Virus record (IMG/VR): IMGVR_UViG_3300029448_000145
Span: 1-26,954 of that record
DNA: 26,954 nt
DNA from: a virus
Reading direction: 5' to 3' (one strand)
Each line of letters opens with the position of its first letter. Positions within the stretch are counted from its first letter, which is position 1. Below, piece by piece: positions 4,647 through 21,874 of this stretch. The notes under the pieces were generated by a model. That model was given only the letters and a program-made list of their open reading frames with translations. It did no database searches and had not been told where the DNA came from. The position numbers and the translations under genes were made by a program.

Positions 4647-5930
4647 TTAGTTAATACCTCTTTGAATATCAGAGCTATCTCTTCCTTGCATAAGTTGACT
4701 ATTAAAAAACTCAAGTAAGTTTCTAACATTAGAAGAATCAGCAGGAGACATTCTTGGATTATTAAAATCATTATATAAAAAATTATCAGATTCTGGTTTT
4801 CTTTCGATAGACTCAACTTCACCTGAGCTAAGTAAAGAATCTAATTCAATTAAATTTATTAATTGCTTTAAATGTTCATTATAATCACCAAACTCACCCC
4901 ACTTCCCAGTAGCTACAGAATTAGTGTCTCTTTGGTCAAGAGGTATAAAAGAATTTCCAACAGCACCACCATCTTGTTTTCCTTTTACGTTCTTTAAATT
5001 AATATTAAAAGATTTTAGTAAATCTTTAGCTGCTTTCATTCTTTCTTTTTTTGGTAAACCTAAAACATCTTTAGTAGCTTCATTAATATTGTAGTATTTA
5101 GAATCAACCACATCTTTTAACTTTACATCTCCAGATGGTTTCATGTTTTTAATTAATTTATTTGTATATTTTTGTAAATAACCTTCATTGATTAAATCCA
5201 TTGCATTAAATGGTTTATTTAAAGTGTTTTCTAAAACTTTATAGTCTTTATAATCATATAAATTTCTTGATGGATTTTGCATTATTTTTCTATTAGGTGC
5301 TAATGTCATTTCTTTTGCTATTTTATCTAGGACTTTTTGCTTACCCTTATCAGGACTCATAGATGCGAATTTTTTAGCAAGTTCAGGTAGTTTACCAGTT
5401 ACTTTTTTTACACTACCAACTACACCAGAACCCGGCATAGCCATGTTCATTATCATTTCTATTAATTCTCTGTTTTCAGCATCAACTATATCAGCATCTA
5501 CCATTGAATAATTACTTTGAGGGTTTTCTTTTAAAGCTTGAGATATTTCAGATTGAGCAATAAGTGCATCCATAGCAGAGGTAGCAGTGTTATCACTAAC
5601 TGCACCGCCATCTTGATAACCAGCCATTTTCTTTTTATTTTTAACGCCTCCACCGTACATATATTTCATTACGTCACCACCACCCATGTAGTTACTAACG
5701 TCACCACCACCCATGTATTCATTAACAACTCCACCACCCATCATAGGTTGCATTTGTGCTAATGAAGCTTGTGTTATTAAAGCATCAATATTATTATGTG
5801 CTGAATTATCTGATACAGCGTTTAATTTTTCTAAAAATGGTTTTCCTAACATTTTAGCTGATTCCCTTTTAATTACAAACTCACCGGGAGTTAACATTGT
5901 TGGTACAGTATCGGTAGTAGTTCCCGGCAT
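4647..5930 (-). CDS. Glycine-rich repeat structural protein of unknown function
   Basis: A 427-residue protein between the endolysin and portal genes. It opens with VPTMLTPGEFVIKRESAKML, a motif I associate with phage virion proteins and the ends of tape-measure proteins. Residues ~65-115 contain a short repeat of the form Y-M-x-G-G-x-V (MMGGGVV, YMGGGDV twice, YMYGGGV, GYQDGGAV), and one more QDGGAV copy occurs near residue 320. Glycine-rich repeats like these are common in marine phage structural proteins. The rest is Lys-rich and helical. Its ATG overlaps the endolysin stop (TAATG), and its TAA touches the portal GTG in frame. A virion role is inferred from its place in the head operon; no enzymatic motif is visible. 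Confidence 0.6.
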   Translation of the reverse strand: MPGTTTDTVPTMLTPGEFVIKRESAKMLGKPFLEKLNAVSDNSAHNNIDALITQASLAQMQPMMGGGVVNEYMGGGDVSNYMGGGDVMKYMYGGGVKNKKKMAGYQDGGAVSDNTATSAMDALIAQSEISQALKENPQSNYSMVDADIVDAENRELIEMIMNMAMPGSGVVGSVKKVTGKLPELAKKFASMSPDKGKQKVLDKIAKEMTLAPNRKIMQNPSRNLYDYKDYKVLENTLNKPFNAMDLINEGYLQKYTNKLIKNMKPSGDVKLKDVVDSKYYNINEATKDVLGLPKKERMKAAKDLLKSFNINLKNVKGKQDGGAVGNSFIPLDQRDTNSVATGKWGEFGDYNEHLKQLINLIELDSLLSSGEVESIERKPESDNFLYNDFNNPRMSPADSSNVRNLLEFFNSQLMQGRDSSDIQRGIN

Positions 5931-9824: not shown

Positions 9825-11129
9825 ATGAGCAATATATTAAATAGTTTAAAGAATATTAGTTCAGAAGGAATTAACAAACTTAAAGAGATAAGAAACACGC
9901 ATAATTGCGGGGTCTGTCATGAGTTAATTAATTCTAATACTGATACTAATGTTATGTATTCGGACAGTCTTCAAGGATGGTTTCATCATGAATGTTTAGA
10001 TACCTTACCTAGATGTAATTCTTGCGACAACGCAAGCTATCATTTAGAATCCGGTATTTGCTCTAGATGTATGAATAGCCAATCTATAAGAAATTATTCT
10101 TATAAACCGGCTCCATTATTTCATAGGGTTAATAACAAGAAAAAATCTGTTTTAATCTCTGAAAGTGGATATTCAAAACATGAGTTACCTATTCTGCATT
10201 TCGGTGTAGAAATTGAGGTAGATAGACATGAAGACTTTTACGAAGATGACTATGACGACAATATTATATTGACTGATAACAATTTCGCTTCTTTAGTTGG
10301 TATAATCGGACGTTCAATAAAAGGGAGTAATCTTTTTTATTCAAAGTCTGATAGTTCACTGACTGAACAAGGGGTTGAAGTTGTTTCACATCCTTTTAGT
10401 TGGAACTATTGGAAAACATTCGCTATAGATATTTATGACGGTTTATTTTCTACATTATTAGCAAGTGGCTATTATAGTGCAGAAACTAAAAAAGCCGGAA
10501 TGCATATACACGTCTCAAAGTCTGCAATAAATAAAACGCAACTACACAAACTTTTATGGTTTGTCTATGAGTGTCCTAATTTTATTAATATGATTGCGGG
10601 ACGTAGTAGTGATAAATGGGCTTCAACTAAATGGTCTAGTTTATTAGGTGTGACTGATTCAACTTTTGCATATAAAAGGAACAAGGTTGCTAGCATAGCT
10701 AATCAAAAAAGTTCTAATACTGCATCACGTTACACTGCTATAAACATGGAGCCATCTAATTCAATAGAGTTTAGAATCTTTAATGGTACATTAAATATTA
10801 TGACTCTATCAAAGGCTATTGAATTTATTCATTCTTTGCTTGCTTATTGTTCGCAAACGTCTTTTAAAGACATTGTAAACAGAAAAAGCGAAGTTGAACG
10901 AATAAAGGGATACCTTAAGTTTTTATCTAATAATCAAAGTAGATATTCAAATTTATGTATATTTTTAGATAGAGAGATGAATGAATTATCCAATGCTAAG
11001 AAAAAGCAATTATTCGGAAACGCAAAGGATAAAGTTAATAGGCAACTTGTTTTAGATGGTGGTTTCAGAAATTCTGAAAATAGAACTGCAACATCTTTTA
11101 ACCTAGATAGAAAAGGAATGATACTATAA
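9825..11129 (+). CDS. Amidoligase (glutamine-synthetase-like) with N-terminal zinc domain
   Basis: A 434-residue enzyme of the Amidoligase_2 type, predicted to use ATP to join a carboxylate to an amine. The catalytic domain starts near residue 120: HFGVEIEVD carries the paired metal-binding glutamates E129 and E131, KAGMHIHVSKS is the family's G-x-H-x-H motif, and SRYTAINMEPSNSIEFRIFN followed by GTLN is the arginine/E-F-R signature. The N-terminus is a LIM/RING-like zinc module with C28, C31, H54, C57, C64, C67, C79 and C82. A good AAGGA lies eight bases before the ATG. Its TAA overlaps the next ATG, coupling it to an amidotransferase that could supply ammonia. The substrate is unknown; a protein or peptide target is plausible given the zinc module. 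Confidence 0.85.
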   Translation: MSNILNSLKNISSEGINKLKEIRNTHNCGVCHELINSNTDTNVMYSDSLQGWFHHECLDTLPRCNSCDNASYHLESGICSRCMNSQSIRNYSYKPAPLFHRVNNKKKSVLISESGYSKHELPILHFGVEIEVDRHEDFYEDDYDDNIILTDNNFASLVGIIGRSIKGSNLFYSKSDSSLTEQGVEVVSHPFSWNYWKTFAIDIYDGLFSTLLASGYYSAETKKAGMHIHVSKSAINKTQLHKLLWFVYECPNFINMIAGRSSDKWASTKWSSLLGVTDSTFAYKRNKVASIANQKSSNTASRYTAINMEPSNSIEFRIFNGTLNIMTLSKAIEFIHSLLAYCSQTSFKDIVNRKSEVERIKGYLKFLSNNQSRYSNLCIFLDREMNELSNAKKKQLFGNAKDKVNRQLVLDGGFRNSENRTATSFNLDRKGMIL

Positions 11130-11878
11130 TGTGCATTGTAATACTAAAGAAGAAAAACGCTAAGATATCAAAGGAAAAACTAGCAGAATCATTTAAAAAT
11201 AATCCTGATGGGTCGGGTTACCTATTCGCTAAGAATGGAAATCTAACTATCAAAAAAGGGTTTTTTGTTTTTGATGATTTCTATAATAGTTATTCTAGAG
11301 ATATGGAGCAATTCAATAATCCGATATCAATTATTCATTTTAGAATAACGACACACGGATTAACGAATAAAACTAATTGCCATCCTCATATGATAAACGA
11401 TGAATTGGGTTTCGCTCACAATGGAATAATTGGATTTGTTGATGACCATAAGAAAAAATCTGATACTCTAGTTTTTAGAAACGATATTTTGAGAGGAATG
11501 CCTAATGGATTTATTTTTAATAATTCTATCATGGCATTAATCGAAGAATCCATCGGTAACTCTAAGCTAGTATTTTTAGATAAAAATGGAAATTGGAATA
11601 TTGCCAATGAATTTATGGGTCATTGGAATAAGAAAAATACCATATGGTACTCTAATAAATCCTATTGTGAAACGAAGAAATTTGTTACTCATTGGAATCG
11701 AGGCAATTACGTCTATCAAAACTACGAACCACTAAAAAAGAAGAATAATACGAAGAATATAGAACGAACTCAATGTAGGACTTGCTTCAGTGGACTTATG
11801 ACTCTTGGAGAGAGAAAATTAGGTCACTGTCAGCCATGTCAATTAGATGGAGTAGCGGGAAATCCTAAGAGGATATAA
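11129..11878 (+). CDS. Class II glutamine amidotransferase (Ntn hydrolase)
   Basis: A 249-residue protein beginning MCIVIL, so that removal of Met exposes Cys2 as the catalytic nucleophile, as in class II glutaminase domains. Family motifs follow: HFRITTHGLTN (about residues 71-81), CHPHMIN, and FAHNGIIGF (about 95), which hold the Arg, His and Asn-Gly used for glutamine binding and the oxyanion hole. The C-terminal 30 residues form a zinc knuckle pair (CRTC and CQPC), unusual for this fold and echoing the zinc module of the amidoligase. Start and preceding stop overlap as TAATG. It may release ammonia for the amidoligase, or act as an Ntn amidase that reverses its product. Confidence 0.85.
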   Translation: MCIVILKKKNAKISKEKLAESFKNNPDGSGYLFAKNGNLTIKKGFFVFDDFYNSYSRDMEQFNNPISIIHFRITTHGLTNKTNCHPHMINDELGFAHNGIIGFVDDHKKKSDTLVFRNDILRGMPNGFIFNNSIMALIEESIGNSKLVFLDKNGNWNIANEFMGHWNKKNTIWYSNKSYCETKKFVTHWNRGNYVYQNYEPLKKKNNTKNIERTQCRTCFSGLMTLGERKLGHCQPCQLDGVAGNPKRI

Positions 11879-12639: not shown

Positions 12640-12715
12640 TTATATATATGCTGGTTACTTTTCCCACCAGCTTCCCCACCAGGAGCCATTTTTTATAAAC
12701 TTTTTTTAATTATTT

Positions 12716-12750
12716 TGGAACTTTTTAGAACTTCTTGCGTATATATAATA
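12716..12750 (+). promoter_or_regulatory. TGGAAC-N15-GCGT promoter motif, copy 1
   Basis: TGGAAC (12716-12721), 15 bases, GCGT (12737-12740), then TATA-like ATATATAATA. It lies 31 bases before the metzincin start. Three other copies have exactly the same spacing. Confidence 0.65.
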
Positions 12751-12771
12751 ACAAAACAAATAAGGAATAAA

Positions 12772-13203
12772 ATGTATAAAAACAAATTAAAAAACAAGAC
12801 GGCTTATGGTTCTAAGTTATTAAAAATGGATAACGATACCTACGCTTTAAGGCGTAGAGTAATAAACAGAATATATAAATATAATAATGAATTACAGAGA
12901 TTAGATTTGCCAAAACTACCAAGAATTGAAGTAAGAGTTGTAAGCAAGTGTACAGATTGCCCCGAAGGCTTGAGCGGTGTTGCAGGATATGCTTATTTGA
13001 ATAAAAGAATTATACATATTCCCGAAAATTCATTTAAATATAAGGGGGTATTATTTGACCAATTAATAATGCATGAAATATTACATTCAATAGGTTTTAA
13101 CCATAAGAAAAATTGTCCCGTAATGCATCCTTCAATGCACAAAGTAAATAGAATAAAATTAGAAAATACTTTTTACAATTATTTAAAAAATTATAATAAC
13201 TAG
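12772..13203 (+). CDS. Metzincin-like zinc metalloprotease
   Basis: A 143-residue protein with the complete metzincin zinc motif HEILHSIGFNH (residues 101-111, pattern HExxHxxGxxH) and a Met-turn-like VMHPS at 117-121. It has no signal peptide, so it would act inside the infected cell unless packaged; the N-terminus is strongly basic. I chose this ATG because AAGGA lies a few bases upstream and the promoter would be transcribed into any earlier start. CTDC at residues 60-63 is an extra Cys pair. It is the first gene after the iteron region, so early expression is likely. The target could be a host protein; this is inference. Confidence 0.75.
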   Translation: MYKNKLKNKTAYGSKLLKMDNDTYALRRRVINRIYKYNNELQRLDLPKLPRIEVRVVSKCTDCPEGLSGVAGYAYLNKRIIHIPENSFKYKGVLFDQLIMHEILHSIGFNHKKNCPVMHPSMHKVNRIKLENTFYNYLKNYNN

Positions 13204-13225
13204 ACAAAAACAAGGAGTAATTAAA

Positions 13226-13570
13226 ATGAATACATTAACATTTAAAGATAATGAATTAAGAGAGTATATAAACGATTCTATAAATGAATGGAAAGAAGAC
13301 GAAGATTATGAGAATATGAAGGAGGATTTTCATTTTCATTTATTTAATGAAGATTACTATATAATAGGCACGTACAAGGCTGAAAAATGGCTAGGTGATA
13401 ACGCTTTTAAGGTAATAGATTATATAAAAGAATATGAAAAAGATAATTTCGGGGAAGTAACTACAGATTTTTCAAGTCCCGAAGCGGTGGTAAATATGTT
13501 CGCTTATATTAGGGGCGAGGAATTACTCGCAGATAGAGAAGAAAATAAAACAACTTGGAGGGGTATATAA
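13226..13570 (+). CDS. Hypothetical acidic protein
   Basis: A 114-residue, strongly acidic protein (many Glu and Asp), preceded by AAGGAG and followed after one base by the next gene. Aromatic and His-rich FHFHLFNEDYYIIGTY lies near residue 35-50, then a helical part with WLGDNAFKVIDYIKEYEKD. It has no cysteine, membrane segment or catalytic motif that I can name. Small acidic early phage proteins frequently bind host enzymes or mimic DNA, but nothing here proves this. Confidence 0.7.
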   Translation: MNTLTFKDNELREYINDSINEWKEDEDYENMKEDFHFHLFNEDYYIIGTYKAEKWLGDNAFKVIDYIKEYEKDNFGEVTTDFSSPEAVVNMFAYIRGEELLADREENKTTWRGI

Positions 13571-13571
13571 A

Positions 13572-13730
13572 ATGAATTACAGATTATTTAATGTTAAAAT
13601 AGGTTTATACGAAAATCAAATAGTTAAATACGATTATCAATATTCAATGGATGCAGTAAAGGAAATACTAGAAGATAATCCAAGTATCTTTGTTGAAAAT
13701 GATGGTAGTTGGGTTTTTACAAAAGATTAA
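13572..13730 (+). CDS. Hypothetical 52-residue protein
   Basis: Starts one base after the preceding stop and is probably translated by coupling. The protein begins MNYRLFNVKIGLYENQIVKY and ends with a Trp-Val-Phe segment, with a helix in between (MDAVKEILED), a compact alpha/beta look. No motif is recognised. It is the last gene of the transcription unit started by promoter copy 1, because another promoter copy follows at 13747. Confidence 0.6.
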   Translation: MNYRLFNVKIGLYENQIVKYDYQYSMDAVKEILEDNPSIFVENDGSWVFTKD

Positions 13731-13746
13731 TAAAATAAAAATAATA

Positions 13747-13784
13747 TGGAACTTTTTTTGAAGTTCTGCGTTATAGAGATATAA
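13747..13784 (+). promoter_or_regulatory. TGGAAC-N15-GCGT promoter motif, copy 2
   Basis: TGGAAC (13747-13752), 15 bases, GCGT (13768-13771), TATAGAG. Within it GAACTT and AAGTTC form an inverted repeat. The motif is followed by AAGGAG and the ATG at 13810. Confidence 0.65.
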
Positions 13785-13809
13785 GCAAGTAAAAAACAAG
13801 GAGTAAAAC

Positions 13810-13995
13810 ATGACAAAAACGCAAATAAAAAAGGAATTTAAGAACGCAGGCGTACAAATTGGCGGAGGTGCTATGGATAGTATTGAGTATGAATTAGTAT
13901 GCTTTGTACGTAGGATGGCAAATAGATGTGCCGAAGGTAATGTAAAAAGACTTACACCCGAATTAATGTGGTGTGCTTTAGGGAGGGCTAAATAA
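13810..13995 (+). CDS. Small histone-fold-like protein (candidate)
   Basis: A 61-residue protein whose layout looks like a single histone fold: short helix (IKKEFKNAG, 6-14), a loop, a long central helix (AMDSIEYELVCFVRRMANRC, 21-40), then RLTPELMWCAL (47-57) as loop plus third helix. KNAG and the RxT-P-E start of the last helix resemble archaeal histones and TAF/NF-Y proteins; the central helix is about two residues shorter. It has its own promoter and a good AAGGAG. If correct it would bind DNA as a dimer, perhaps compacting phage DNA or remodelling host chromatin. A generic three-helix protein is the alternative. Its stop overlaps the next ATG (TAATG). Confidence 0.6.
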   Translation: MTKTQIKKEFKNAGVQIGGGAMDSIEYELVCFVRRMANRCAEGNVKRLTPELMWCALGRAK

Positions 13996-14162
13996 TGCTA
14001 AATAAGGTAAGTAAAAAAGAGTGTATGGATGCCATAGAGTATTTATTTACTATGGGTTATACATTAGAAATGACTAGTGATAAAAAATATTATACTGAAA
14101 TACTACTTAAAAAGGTAGCTAATGATTATAATATAGAACTTAAGGGTATAGATGATGAGTGA
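13995..14162 (+). CDS. Hypothetical 55-residue protein
   Basis: Start overlaps the previous stop (TAATG) and its own end overlaps the next start by eight bases, so it is embedded in a coupled series. It is a mostly helical, charged protein with one Cys; CMDAIEYLFTMGYTLEM is an amphipathic helix. No family is recognised. Confidence 0.6.
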   Translation: MLNKVSKKECMDAIEYLFTMGYTLEMTSDKKYYTEILLKKVANDYNIELKGIDDE

Positions 14163-14313
14163 TTTTAAATTAACTAAGGAAGAATTTTGCTACAACGATT
14201 TAAGAGATAGACTCATAGACCATGGAGAAAATGCTTTTATTCATTATGTAGAGAGGCAGTATAATAACTATAAAGAGGGGTATAAAAAAGAATCAAGGCG
14301 AGAATATGAATAA
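14155..14313 (+). CDS. Hypothetical 52-residue protein
   Basis: Begins inside the end of the preceding gene and ends inside the start of the next one, both by eight bases. The protein is charged and aromatic with a basic, Tyr-rich end (NNYKEGYKKESRREYE). No motif is recognised; its existence is supported by the tight chain of overlapping starts and stops. Confidence 0.55.
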   Translation: MSDFKLTKEEFCYNDLRDRLIDHGENAFIHYVERQYNNYKEGYKKESRREYE

Positions 14314-15220: not shown

Positions 15221-15233
15221 TATTATACATAAT
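15221..15233 (+). promoter_or_regulatory. TATTATACATAAT operator-like motif
   Basis: An exact copy of the 13-mer that recurs at 12275, 12597 and 18341, here ending in the start codon of the following nuclease gene. A bound protein would block both the promoter region and the start. The extension TATTATACATAATGTC is shared with the 18341 copy. Confidence 0.45.
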
Positions 15234-15639
15234 GTCTGAAACAATAAAATTAAGCAAAACTCGTAAAGGTTACATAGGGGAAAATATGGTAATAAAATTT
15301 CTATTAGAGAGGAATTTAAGGTTGTATATCCCCGCAGTAGATGATTTTGGTATAGACTTATTAGTAGAACAAAATAATAAATACACGACAATACAAGTAA
15401 AATATCATACTACAATGATGTCAGAATCTGCAATACAAGTTAGGGTAAGACCTACAAAAGCTGATTATATCGCCATACCTGTTAAAGCATATGGTCGAAT
15501 GCATATTATGTGGTATAAAAATACACGAAAGAACAGAAAATACACGATTGCGTTTCAGAAATATATACCAAAGAATAACCAAATAAAGAAGATTAATTTC
15601 TTTAAATCTTTTTTAGAATGTCCCTTCGATAAAAAATAA
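15232..15639 (+). CDS. PD-(D/E)XK endonuclease
   Basis: A 135-residue nuclease-like protein. The motif set of the PDDEXK_5 family is visible: GYIGENMVIKFLLERNL with E17, DDFGIDLLVEQNN with D42, and TIQVKYHT with Q55-x-K57. Length is typical for a stand-alone single domain. The C-terminal third is basic. It probably cuts or processes DNA; no partner methylase is near, so a restriction enzyme is unlikely. The ATG lies inside the operator-like motif and has no Shine-Dalgarno immediately upstream. Confidence 0.75.
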   Translation: MSETIKLSKTRKGYIGENMVIKFLLERNLRLYIPAVDDFGIDLLVEQNNKYTTIQVKYHTTMMSESAIQVRVRPTKADYIAIPVKAYGRMHIMWYKNTRKNRKYTIAFQKYIPKNNQIKKINFFKSFLECPFDKK

Positions 15640-16678: not shown

Positions 16679-16909
16679 ATGTTTGCAACTTTAGATAATT
16701 TAGAAAAAGAACTACACCAAGAAATAAAAAAAGTAGAGAAAAAATGGGACGACGAGCCTAAAAAAGATTATTACTTTCATGAAATATGTGGTATAAATAA
16801 AGCTATTGATGTAGTAGAAAGATTTAAATCAAAAGAGTTACTTGAATTAGATAAGTGGGTAGAATCTTTTATAAAAAAAGAAAAAGAAGGGAATACTTTA
16901 AGTGATTGA
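16679..16909 (+). CDS. Hypothetical 76-residue helical protein
   Basis: TAGGAG lies eight bases before the ATG, directly after the last hairpin of the structured region. The protein is highly charged and mostly helical, coiled-coil-like at the N-terminus (LDNLEKELHQEIKKVEKKWD), and has one His-Cys pair (YYFHEICGINKA). It overlaps the Cas4-like gene by eight bases and so is probably co-translated. Unknown function. Confidence 0.6.
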   Translation: MFATLDNLEKELHQEIKKVEKKWDDEPKKDYYFHEICGINKAIDVVERFKSKELLELDKWVESFIKKEKEGNTLSD

Positions 16910-17636
16910 TATTAAAGATATATACGATAAGTATATAGCAGATAAAAATGAGTTAAATAGACAAAAGAGATATGTGGGTAAGGAGCAGTGGTTTCATGCA
17001 TCTTCATCTGGAATGTGTATGAGAAAACACTACTTTCAGCACGTTGCTAAAGTAAAACCTAACCCAATAGATGCTAATACAATGAGATTGTTTAGGATTG
17101 GAGATATGGTTCACGAAGATATACAAAATGCGTTAACTGAATATGCTCAATTAAATGGTTCTAAAATATATATTGAAACAGAAATAAGGTTACCCGAAGT
17201 AAATGTAAGGGGATTTTTAGATGTATTAATTGCCGATGATGGTGCTTTATATGATATAAAGACCTGTAACTCTAGAAAATGGAGTAAATTATTTGGATAT
17301 AAATACAAAGACCCGAATCCATCTATTAATTATCATCTTCAATTAGGTACTTATGCATGGTGGTATGAAAAGGAGCATAATACTAAATTAAAAAAATTAG
17401 CTTTATTTTATTATAATAAGGATACCTCTAGGGTTAGAGAATATCCTGTTGACTTAGCTTTTATAGAAGAAGCGAAAGTATATTGGAGAGACTTAAATAA
17501 TAAATTTAAAAAAGGTAACCCTCCTATCGAACTAGGTATTGCCCCGATGTATTCGTGGGAATGTAATATAAAGTATTGCAATTTTTACAGAGTTTGTGGT
17601 GGAGGTCTAAAAGGAGAAGGAGAAAGTACGTTATGA
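16902..17636 (+). CDS. Cas4-like PD-(D/E)XK exonuclease with iron-sulfur cysteines
   Basis: A 244-residue RecB/Cas4-family nuclease. C39 near the N-terminus and C221, C226 and C232 near the C-terminus have the one-plus-three arrangement that binds a 4Fe-4S cluster in Cas4 and AddB. The active site is H71 (GDMVHED), D107 (RGFLDVLI), D118-x-K120 (YDIKTC) and the Q-x3-Y motif at 147-151 (QLGTY). Related phage proteins degrade DNA ends or process recombination intermediates. No cas genes or CRISPR array lie nearby, so it acts alone or with the local recombination genes. It starts with GTG, overlapping the preceding gene, and ends overlapping the next ATG (ATGA). Confidence 0.88.
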   Translation: MIDIKDIYDKYIADKNELNRQKRYVGKEQWFHASSSGMCMRKHYFQHVAKVKPNPIDANTMRLFRIGDMVHEDIQNALTEYAQLNGSKIYIETEIRLPEVNVRGFLDVLIADDGALYDIKTCNSRKWSKLFGYKYKDPNPSINYHLQLGTYAWWYEKEHNTKLKKLALFYYNKDTSRVREYPVDLAFIEEAKVYWRDLNNKFKKGNPPIELGIAPMYSWECNIKYCNFYRVCGGGLKGEGESTL

Positions 17637-19319: not shown

Positions 19320-19525
19320 GTAAATCTAAAAGCATTTTTATTGTTACATCTAAAGGTATTTGTGTAAAGGTATATTTAGATTTAAATAATAATTATGTTA
19401 GGGGTATGCAAAAAGGGGCTATTCCATTCTTAAGAAAGATAGGGTGGGATATAGAAAAACTAGATAAAAGAAATCGTAAAAACTGGAAAGACTTAAAAAG
19501 GAAAAGGATATTTGGAAATGGCTAA
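19316..19525 (+). CDS. Hypothetical 69-residue protein
   Basis: Overlaps its neighbour by four bases (ATGA). SKSIFIVTSKGICVKVYLDL followed by a very basic helical tail (KLDKRNRKNWKDLKRKRIFG), suggesting nucleic-acid binding. Its end overlaps the resolvase-like gene. No family recognised. Confidence 0.55.
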   Translation: MSKSKSIFIVTSKGICVKVYLDLNNNYVRGMQKGAIPFLRKIGWDIEKLDKRNRKNWKDLKRKRIFGNG

Positions 19526-19859
19526 GAAAAAAGACCCGAAAAGAGTTAGGCAAGGCCGAAGAAATAGGCAACGTGGTGCTGAACTACAAAGATTTTCTGT
19601 TAAGCTGGCTAAAGAATATAACTTGGAAGCTTTCAATAGGGATAGGGGTGGTGCTCAACATGAGAAAGGAGACATAGAAATTGAAGGTAGATACTATGGT
19701 TGTAAACGTAGAACAAAGATAGCTAAATGGTGCAAACCTGAAAAAGAAGAAGATGGTGTTGTGATAAGAGAAGATTATGGTAAGGCATATATTGTTTTAG
19801 ATTATGAAAAATTTATTATGCTTTTATCTATGTTAAAAGAATTTAAAGATGACGTATAA
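19518..19859 (+). CDS. Holliday-junction-resolvase-like nuclease
   Basis: A 113-residue PD-(D/E)XK protein of the Hjc-like type found in phages. E22 (RQRGAELQRFSVKLAKE), D52 (KGDIEIEG) and K63 (YYGCKRRTK) fit the usual E, D and K; the acidic residue two before the lysine is Gly (G-C-K), a variant I recall in other phage members. The N-terminus is very basic, suiting DNA binding. It would resolve branched DNA before packaging. I preferred the ATG at 19518 over a TTG six bases earlier because of AAAGGATA spacing. It overlaps the next gene by 11 bases. Confidence 0.65.
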   Translation: MAKKKDPKRVRQGRRNRQRGAELQRFSVKLAKEYNLEAFNRDRGGAQHEKGDIEIEGRYYGCKRRTKIAKWCKPEKEEDGVVIREDYGKAYIVLDYEKFIMLLSMLKEFKDDV

Positions 19860-20344: not shown

Positions 20345-20545
20345 ATGGCTTACGAAATGAAAGACAATAGCATGAGTTTATTGAAAAACGGTTTCAAAAA
20401 TGAAGGCGACAATAAACCTGACTATACAGGTAATGCTAAAGTTGGTGGAGTTGATATGAAAGCATCTATTTGGATAAATAAAACCAAAGATGGTAAAACT
20501 CAACTCAGGGGTAACTTTCAAAAGAAAGATGACAACCCATTTTAA
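20345..20545 (+). CDS. Small DUF736-like or single-strand-binding-like protein
   Basis: A 66-residue protein with strong TAAGGAG. NKPDYTGNAKVGGVDMKASI then WINKTKDGKTQLRGNFQKKD gives the short beta meander of DUF736-like and related small phage proteins (P-D-Y-x-G-x-x-x-x-x-G-x-x-x-x-x-x-W). It is acidic at its tail (KDDNPF), which recalls single-strand-binding protein tails ending in D-P-F. This makes a single-strand DNA role attractive but unproven. It has its own regulatory repeat and a downstream hairpin, so it is likely expressed separately and strongly. Confidence 0.5.
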   Translation: MAYEMKDNSMSLLKNGFKNEGDNKPDYTGNAKVGGVDMKASIWINKTKDGKTQLRGNFQKKDDNPF

Positions 20546-21526: not shown

Positions 21527-21874
21527 ATGTATAATGTTTTTGTATATGGAACTTTAAAAAAAGGTAATTCTAATCATCATTTCTTACAAAATAGTGAATT
21601 TTTAAGAGATGAGGTATTAAAAGACCATTCTATTTATGTTTCAAATGGATTTAATTTTCCGTTGTTACTAAAAGATAAAGGTGGTAAAGTTCATGGAGAA
21701 GTTTATAAAGTTGATGATAATACTTTAGCAACCTTGGATATGCTTGAAGGTGAAGGTCATTTATATAATCGTATTGATAACGATACATTAGGTTTTCAAT
21801 ATTATTTATTTAATGAACATAATCGTTGGGATATTGATAGAAAAAAAGATAAAATAAATAATGGAAAATGGTAA
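21527..21874 (+). CDS. Gamma-glutamylcyclotransferase-like (GGCT/AIG2) protein
   Basis: A 115-residue protein with VYGTLKKG (residues 6-13), the substrate-binding loop of the family, and LDMLEGEGHLYNR (70-82), whose Glu acts as general acid/base. Members remove 5-oxoproline from gamma-glutamyl amines or peptides. The domain appears complete but slightly short. It is the only metabolic-type enzyme besides the amidoligase and amidotransferase at 9825-11878, and could cleave gamma-glutamyl amides that the amidoligase makes; it lies about 10 kb downstream in the same direction. The start follows the previous stop by three bases, with no clear Shine-Dalgarno. Confidence 0.85.
   Translation: MYNVFVYGTLKKGNSNHHFLQNSEFLRDEVLKDHSIYVSNGFNFPLLLKDKGGKVHGEVYKVDDNTLATLDMLEGEGHLYNRIDNDTLGFQYYLFNEHNRWDIDRKKDKINNGKW

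Follow-up and report, generated by a model that had tools for sequence, protein, structure and literature searches.

A 61-residue phage protein with a predicted histone fold related to alpha3-type histones

Computational analysis of a 26,954-nt stretch of IMGVR_UViG_3300029448_000145 (here called the window), which belongs to a virus record of 36,849 bases in IMG/VR, revealed a real gene for a small protein, P0001, with a predicted histone fold, detectable homology to alpha3-type histones and a neighbourhood of recombination and replication genes. We consider P0001 to be, most likely, a stand-alone phage histone-fold homodimer related to the alpha3 histones, which would bind and bend DNA and act in the DNA metabolism of the phage.

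Results and Discussion

The P0001 gene is under purifying selection

The open reading frame of P0001 extends from 13810 to 13995 on the plus strand, begins with ATG, is preceded by the ribosome-binding site AAGGAG (13798–13803, plus strand) and encodes the 61 residues MTKTQIKKEFKNAGVQIGGGAMDSIEYELVCFVRRMANRCAEGNVKRLTPELMWCALGRAK, with a net charge of +5 and a pI of 9.5. The original prediction of a 61-residue frame at this place was thus accurate in coordinates and length. Homologues with 89–97% identity are present in seven IMG/VR contigs (16 stretches were examined and seven confirmed; a repeat search returned the same seven). Among the eight P0001-type sequences (28 pairs), pS is 0.325, pN is 0.045 and dN/dS is 0.11. 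Since this value indicates purifying selection, we conclude that the frame is a real gene and not a chance reading frame.

The gene is preceded by a gap of 79 nt, but promoter-like sites in the region 13150–14200 are no more frequent than expected by chance (5 against 5.8), and the earlier proposal that the gene stands first in its own promoter unit is not supported. A short hairpin of 8 bp lies in the gap (13748–13767, plus strand; fold z −1.84); it does not score as a terminator, and a terminator scan of the region 13150–14200 found none. Further, an Rfam scan of the 5′ region gave no match at the gathering threshold. The element TATAAGCAAGTAAA is found at 13770–13800 of the window and also upstream of the homologues in L001, L003, L005 and L006, and an insert of approximately 80 nt, similar in L002, L003 and L006, is located immediately 5′ of the gene. 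In L005, a different insert with a strong stem (z −4.19) occupies this place.

Diverged relatives in related phages

Databases were searched with P0001 alone. No family matched in Pfam, PHROGs or NCBIfam, no PDB sequence was found with HMMER, and tblastn against phage records gave no meaningful match. A search of genome contigs for relatives yielded 53 stretches, none of which was confirmed, and BLASTP produced no alignment with the Leptospira histone. Profile comparisons of the single sequence were little stronger: hhalign was weak against only three histones (P 0.014) and reached 13.7% (P 0.002) against the alpha3-histone profile described below, while HMMER against the same 40-sequence profile gave 4.2 bits (single-test E 0.0038), which is suggestive only. 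The absent Pfam match is, however, no evidence against a histone, because L014 and L085, which are genuine alpha3 histones, likewise obtain no Pfam histone match, including PF00808. As far as sequence is concerned, the case for a histone fold depends on four diverged relatives, P0001 by itself being weak.

These relatives came from related phages, which were fetched via the exonuclease gene of the window. The 23 loci obtained, together with the window, contain 3846 ORFs. A P0001 profile run over these ORFs found four close members besides that of the window, plus a diverged member in L105 (E 7.7e-6), and the best match of the alpha3-histone profile (HMMER) over the same 3846 ORFs was this same L105 ORF (E 0.014). 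Further scans added members in L110 and L111 and then in L150 (E 5.5e-16 among 1413 ORFs), the last of which begins MLNKSKARKAFHNRGIQISSDTTKAIEPYARKLIEFAADNAANRGIKRVTINNLQDLI. The proteins of L105, L110, L111 and L150 are the diverged relatives (23–25% identical), and the L105 and L150 types have about 17 extra residues relative to P0001; the full-length L105 homologue has a net charge of −2 and a pI of 5.25, its core a charge of +3. The alignment of the resulting 12-member family comprises 61 columns without internal gaps, and K3, F10, N12, G14, Q16, I17, I25, K46, R47 and T49 are invariant in all 12 sequences.

A search with the degenerate pattern E-F-x-N-x-G-x-Q-I recovered only known family members and unrelated genes, and phage records searched by tblastn with the proteins of L111, L150 and L085 showed no match beyond chance. 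Matches of the L105, L111 and L150 proteins in PHROGs and Pfam were weak and scattered and were set aside.

Profile comparison links the family to alpha3-type histones

A Bdellovibrio-type histone query retrieved HBb (8fvx, 8cmp), HLp (9qt0) and HTkC (9f2c) from PDB. With the alignment of these three proteins, 76 loci were in turn found in genomes of bacteria and archaea and one in viral contigs. The 77 ORFs gave 93 segments, which were reduced to 40 sequences at <80% identity. The resulting profile contains 40 cellular alpha3-type histones of the FtF and bacterial-dimer types (HLp, HTkC, HBb). Two side observations concern such histones. L085 (IMGVR_UViG_3300009111_000005, 87 kb), a contig classed as viral, encodes at 4935–5168 on its plus strand an FtF-like alpha3 histone with an N-terminal tail, which is 44% identical to the query. 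Doublets with two alpha3 histone folds per chain (131–155 aa) were seen in L049, L050, L051, L053, L058, L084 and others; they occur in Bacteriovoracaceae and related bacterial genomes.

The profile search by which the histone-fold proposal could be checked did find homology. The 12-member family matched the 40 alpha3 histones in hhalign with 95.2% (P 2.5e-8, score 40.0, columns 3–53), and 93.3% (P 2.6e-7) was obtained when the window subfamily was removed and only the four diverged members were used. Taken by part, the window subfamily scored 16.7%, the L105 subfamily 78.9% and L150 alone 83.0%, and against four random halves of the alpha3 set the values were 93.5–95.0%. An earlier family of 11 members had given 93.5%, with a maximum score of 16.9 in 300 shuffles. 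Thus, judged from sequence profiles, homology of the family to known histones is detectable.

Weak single-sequence similarity is also what an unrelated three-helix protein resembling the fold would give, for instance a small helix-turn-helix protein or an adaptor. Two controls speak against this explanation. In a column-shuffle control (n=500) the mean score was 9.6 and the maximum 22.0, compared to 40.0 for the family, and the reversed family scored 10.9. As a control with real proteins, ORFs of the phage loci were grouped blindly into 127 families; compared to the histone profile, the present family came first with 40.2 and the next reached 17.6. In addition, a combined alignment of 30 cellular-type or L085 proteins with 11 phage sequences is near-gapless and matches the two groups loop for loop, with no gap inside alpha2.

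The kinship differs from the one first proposed, which pointed to archaeal histones of the HMfB type and to TAF and NF-Y proteins. Against nucleosomal histones, represented by a Thermococcales-centred profile, the phage family scored 0.3% in hhalign, and P0001 had no Pfam match. Since the alpha3 profile gave 95.2%, the family appears to be tied to the alpha3 type in particular, and a nucleosomal archaeal histone was dismissed as nearest relative on the basis of the Thermococcales profile. For scale, the alpha3 and the Thermococcales nucleosomal histones match each other with 93.8%, approximately the value of the phage family against alpha3.

The predicted structure is a histone fold

A first AlphaFold2 model, computed from the eight close sequences, had the right helix order but a pLDDT of 60.7. 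It matched no fold clearly, and only one of its nine best PDB matches was a histone. A second model was fed with P0001, the sequences closely homologous to it and the proteins of L105, L110, L111 and L150, without any cellular histone. This model has a mean pLDDT of 88.2 and a pTM of 0.59. It consists of helix alpha1 (residues 3–12, with K3, F10 and N12 invariant; 13816–13845), loop L1 (residues 13–18, with G14, Q16 and I17 invariant; 13846–13863), a long central helix alpha2 (residues 19–42, 24 residues; 13864–13935), loop L2 (residues 43–49, with K46, R47 and T49 invariant; 13936–13956) and helix alpha3 (residues 50–56; 13957–13977), all on the plus strand. Residues 51–60 have a mean pLDDT of 77, below the rest of the model. 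The layout read from the sequence originally, helix-loop-long helix-loop-helix, is therefore reproduced, and the central helix, which had been noted as short, is indeed short by the standard of nucleosomal histones.

The best PDB match in Foldseek was HLp (9qt0; probability 1.00, TM 0.73/0.79, 1.6 Å), and among the matches listed all 50 of 50 were histone-fold proteins or complexes containing them, with E-values of at least 0.05. VIA-align gave Z 6.2 for HTkC (1.4 Å, 53 residues), 6.2 for HLp and 5.7 for HBb. Moderate structural scores are common among small helical proteins, and a Z of about 6 is middling for a protein of this kind and not decisive alone. Nevertheless, the outcome that would have refuted the proposal, prediction of some different fold, was not seen, and the profile comparison and a model built without cellular histones agree independently. 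For this reason the histone-fold reading holds: we regard the fold as very likely, and an unrelated three-helix protein as very unlikely.

Residues of the putative dimer core and DNA contacts

In the gapless register, a residue number in HLp is the P0001 number plus 10. The dimer core of HLp is described as V16, I20, L35, L39, L42, L47 and F63, and its DNA contacts as A13, S14, K15, K21, T27 and G29, joined in simulation by K54 and R59; the same account has the tetramer need R49, N53 and R55 and defines the RD clamp as R55–D62 (PMC12701072). For HBb, the DNA contacts described are T8, S9, K10, K12, T23, S24, A25, K52, T53 and R57 (PMC11317129).

Measured against these descriptions, the HLp core residues V16, I20, L35, L39, L42 and F63 correspond to I6, F10, I25, L29, F32 and M53 in P0001, all of which are hydrophobic, and L47 corresponds to A37. 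The DNA patch of alpha1 reads K3, T4, Q5 in P0001 and K-S-K in the diverged members, further alpha1 lysines (K7, K11) are present in the window subfamily, and HBb K52 aligns with the invariant K46. The invariant residues K3, N12, G14, Q16, I17, K46, R47 and T49 sit in alpha1, L1 and L2, the parts of HLp and HBb described as touching DNA, while the L2 contact set given there is only partly retained in the family. The residue mapping in L2 and alpha3 is approximate, because hhalign confidence falls over the last ~10 columns and the structural superpositions are shifted by 2–4 residues against the gapless profile alignment in this part.

The RD clamp is absent. In place of the pair described for HLp (R55/D62) and HBb (R51/D58), P0001 has V45/L52 in the gapless register or R47/W54 in the RxT register, and neither places an acid at the clamp position. 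The FtF tetramer set, as described for HLp, is not retained either, columns 39, 43 and 45 being R/K/N, G/N/R and V/L/I across the family. An FtF tetramer was rejected for P0001 on these grounds, and because the tetramer residues are lost, a DNA-bending dimer like HBb is favoured. With respect to the two motifs once held to agree with archaeal histones, KNAG fits and stands at the end of alpha1, as in HMfB; R-x-T-P-E, whose agreement depends on the register, probably does not, as the gapless profile alignment puts R47 on the T, not the R, of RxT.

P0001 is likely to bind DNA as a dimer. Two copies would pair via their crossed central helices, and the homodimer would bind DNA without sequence preference, through the first, basic turn of alpha1 together with the paired loops L1 and L2. 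It would bend DNA in the manner of HBb and form neither FtF tetramers nor hypernucleosomes. A different and rather improbable reading is that the histone fold was kept for a function as protein–protein adaptor, e.g., as partner or regulator of the exonuclease, instead of DNA binding; histone folds in TAFs or SOS act as such adaptors. The missing RD clamp and the partial L2 contact set would suit this, as would a longer alpha3 with hydrophobic residues and a cysteine (M53, W54, C55, L57) and the net acidic L105 protein. On the other hand, the invariant residues are concentrated in alpha1, L1 and L2, several of them are basic or polar (K3, K46, R47, T49), and P0001 itself is positively charged.

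The gene lies in an early recombination cluster

On the plus strand of the window, a PD-(D/E)XK/Cas4-like exonuclease gene (16902–17636) belongs to the same early cluster as genes for a RusA-like Holliday-junction resolvase (19512–19859) and a protein like single-strand DNA-binding proteins (20345–20545, E 2.5e-5). Genes for terminase, portal and head proteins are located nearby on the minus strand, and the presence of an endolysin gene in the window (phrog_465, 3.9e-37) argues for a bacterial host. The window and the close relatives share the order phrog_10208 gene, histone-fold gene and run of small genes, with the histone-fold gene approximately 3–4 kb upstream of the exonuclease. The two genes overlap in L105, L110, L111 and L150, where the histone-fold ORF extends over the exonuclease start codon (ATGATTGATG). 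This translational overlap in four contigs is a further point for an adaptor; however, in the window the two genes are ~3 kb apart, and hence a fixed partnership is not evident.

Giant-virus histones, as described in PMC11390915, condense the genome in the capsid, and a histone fold in a DNA phage could be taken to suggest the same, i.e., that P0001 is packaged as virion chromatin. The gene, however, is part of the plus-strand recombination and replication cluster and not of the minus-strand head and packaging genes; virion packaging was rejected as first choice due to this position. Further, the histone-fold gene is present in only five of the 23 exonuclease loci, many of which have short, incomplete flanks, and is hence unlikely to be essential to packaging. 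A role in the capsid is thus highly improbable. In a second set of exonuclease loci, again often with short flanks, the gene was found in four of nine, three of them the L105, L110 and L111 contigs already known. It looks accessory in these phages.

The position in the early recombination cluster and the overlap with the exonuclease support an early role in DNA metabolism rather than one in the capsid. Expressed from this cluster, the P0001 dimer would coat phage DNA or shape it while it is replicated and recombined, and we hypothesize that the dimer works alongside the Cas4-like exonuclease, with which it is probably co-expressed.

Several other genes of the window deserve mention. A PDDEXK_5-family PD-(D/E)XK endonuclease is encoded within the early gene run (15232–15639, plus strand). 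An ORF at 12715–13203 (plus strand) without a match in Pfam or PHROGs contains the stretch HEILHSIGFNH, presumably a zinc-metalloprotease-like motif. An amidoligase gene (9825–11129, plus strand) adjoins a class-II glutamine amidotransferase-like gene (11129–11878, plus strand; weak match). Further along the plus strand, positions 21527–21874 encode a gamma-glutamyl cyclotransferase (GGACT). Together, these three may form a gamma-glutamyl modification set in the phage.

Relation to known histones

P0001 resembles the alpha3-type proteins HLp (9QT0), HTkC (9F2C) and HBb (8FVX, 9F0E) in profile over residues 3–53 and in fold (1.4–1.9 Å over 53–55 residues). A short alpha2 is found on both sides, and the hydrophobic dimer core and polar positions in alpha1, L1 and L2 are common to both as far as the descriptions of these proteins go. 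Alpha3 histones are defined by an alpha2 that is 4–5 residues shorter and an alpha3 of 3–4 residues (PMC11390915). By this description, the short alpha2 is present in P0001 (24 predicted residues, aligned without an internal gap), but the truncated alpha3 is not: P0001 has a predicted helix of seven residues (50–56) where alpha3 histones have one turn. The RxTxxxxD motif with the RD clamp of the FtF and bacterial dimer types is lacking as well, and P0001 is only 7–23% identical to single alpha3 histones. Since both the truncated alpha3 and RxTxxxxD fail, we call P0001 related to the alpha3 histones and not a member of them; the family is a variant outside the named categories. HMfB-type archaeal nucleosomal histones share the fold, but gave no sequence match by the Thermococcales-centred profile and have a longer alpha2.

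A phage gene for a single histone fold had been expected to be rare, which stands, but it is not without precedent. A category of "phage histones" has been described with a C-terminal tetramerization domain, without RxTxxxD and with predicted DNA bridging (Schwab et al., 2024; PMC11390915). According to this description, they are caudoviral, have a single histone fold and lack the RxTxxxD motif, all as in P0001, and the spacing of 39 between K10 and K49 recurs between K7 and K46 in P0001. They differ in their C-terminal helical tetramerization domain, whereas P0001 stops at residue 61, after the histone fold; this comparison (A0A2E7QIQ9) is one of description and lysine spacing only. Among predicted viral proteins in BFVD, the best structural matches are A0A516LUS5 (64 aa; TM 0.92/0.88, the top match), A0A516LIY4 (139 aa) and A0A516M1G1 (99 aa), each with a Foldseek probability of 1.00 and an identity of 17–24%. 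The latter two are longer than P0001, as the phage histones of Schwab et al. would be. The linker-histone-H1-like proteins reported in jumbo phages are, by their description, a different kind of protein (PMC12619734). A literature search, mostly at overview level, returned no other account of tailed-phage proteins with a histone fold.

Implications

Bacterial histones were recognised only recently, and the phage histones described so far form one predicted category, with no experiment in the literature covered. P0001, with 61 residues and with close and diverged relatives beside a recombination nuclease, offers a small, testable phage-histone system. As a tentative and somewhat doubtful extension, a reduced histone with neither RD clamp nor tetramerization device might chromatinise phage DNA in recombination-dependent replication, paired with the Cas4-like exonuclease, and further families of this kind might lie beyond what domain libraries can detect. 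The P0001 family shows that such proteins escape Pfam, PHROGs and NCBIfam, and it bears on the question whether phages act as source or as sink for prokaryotic histones.
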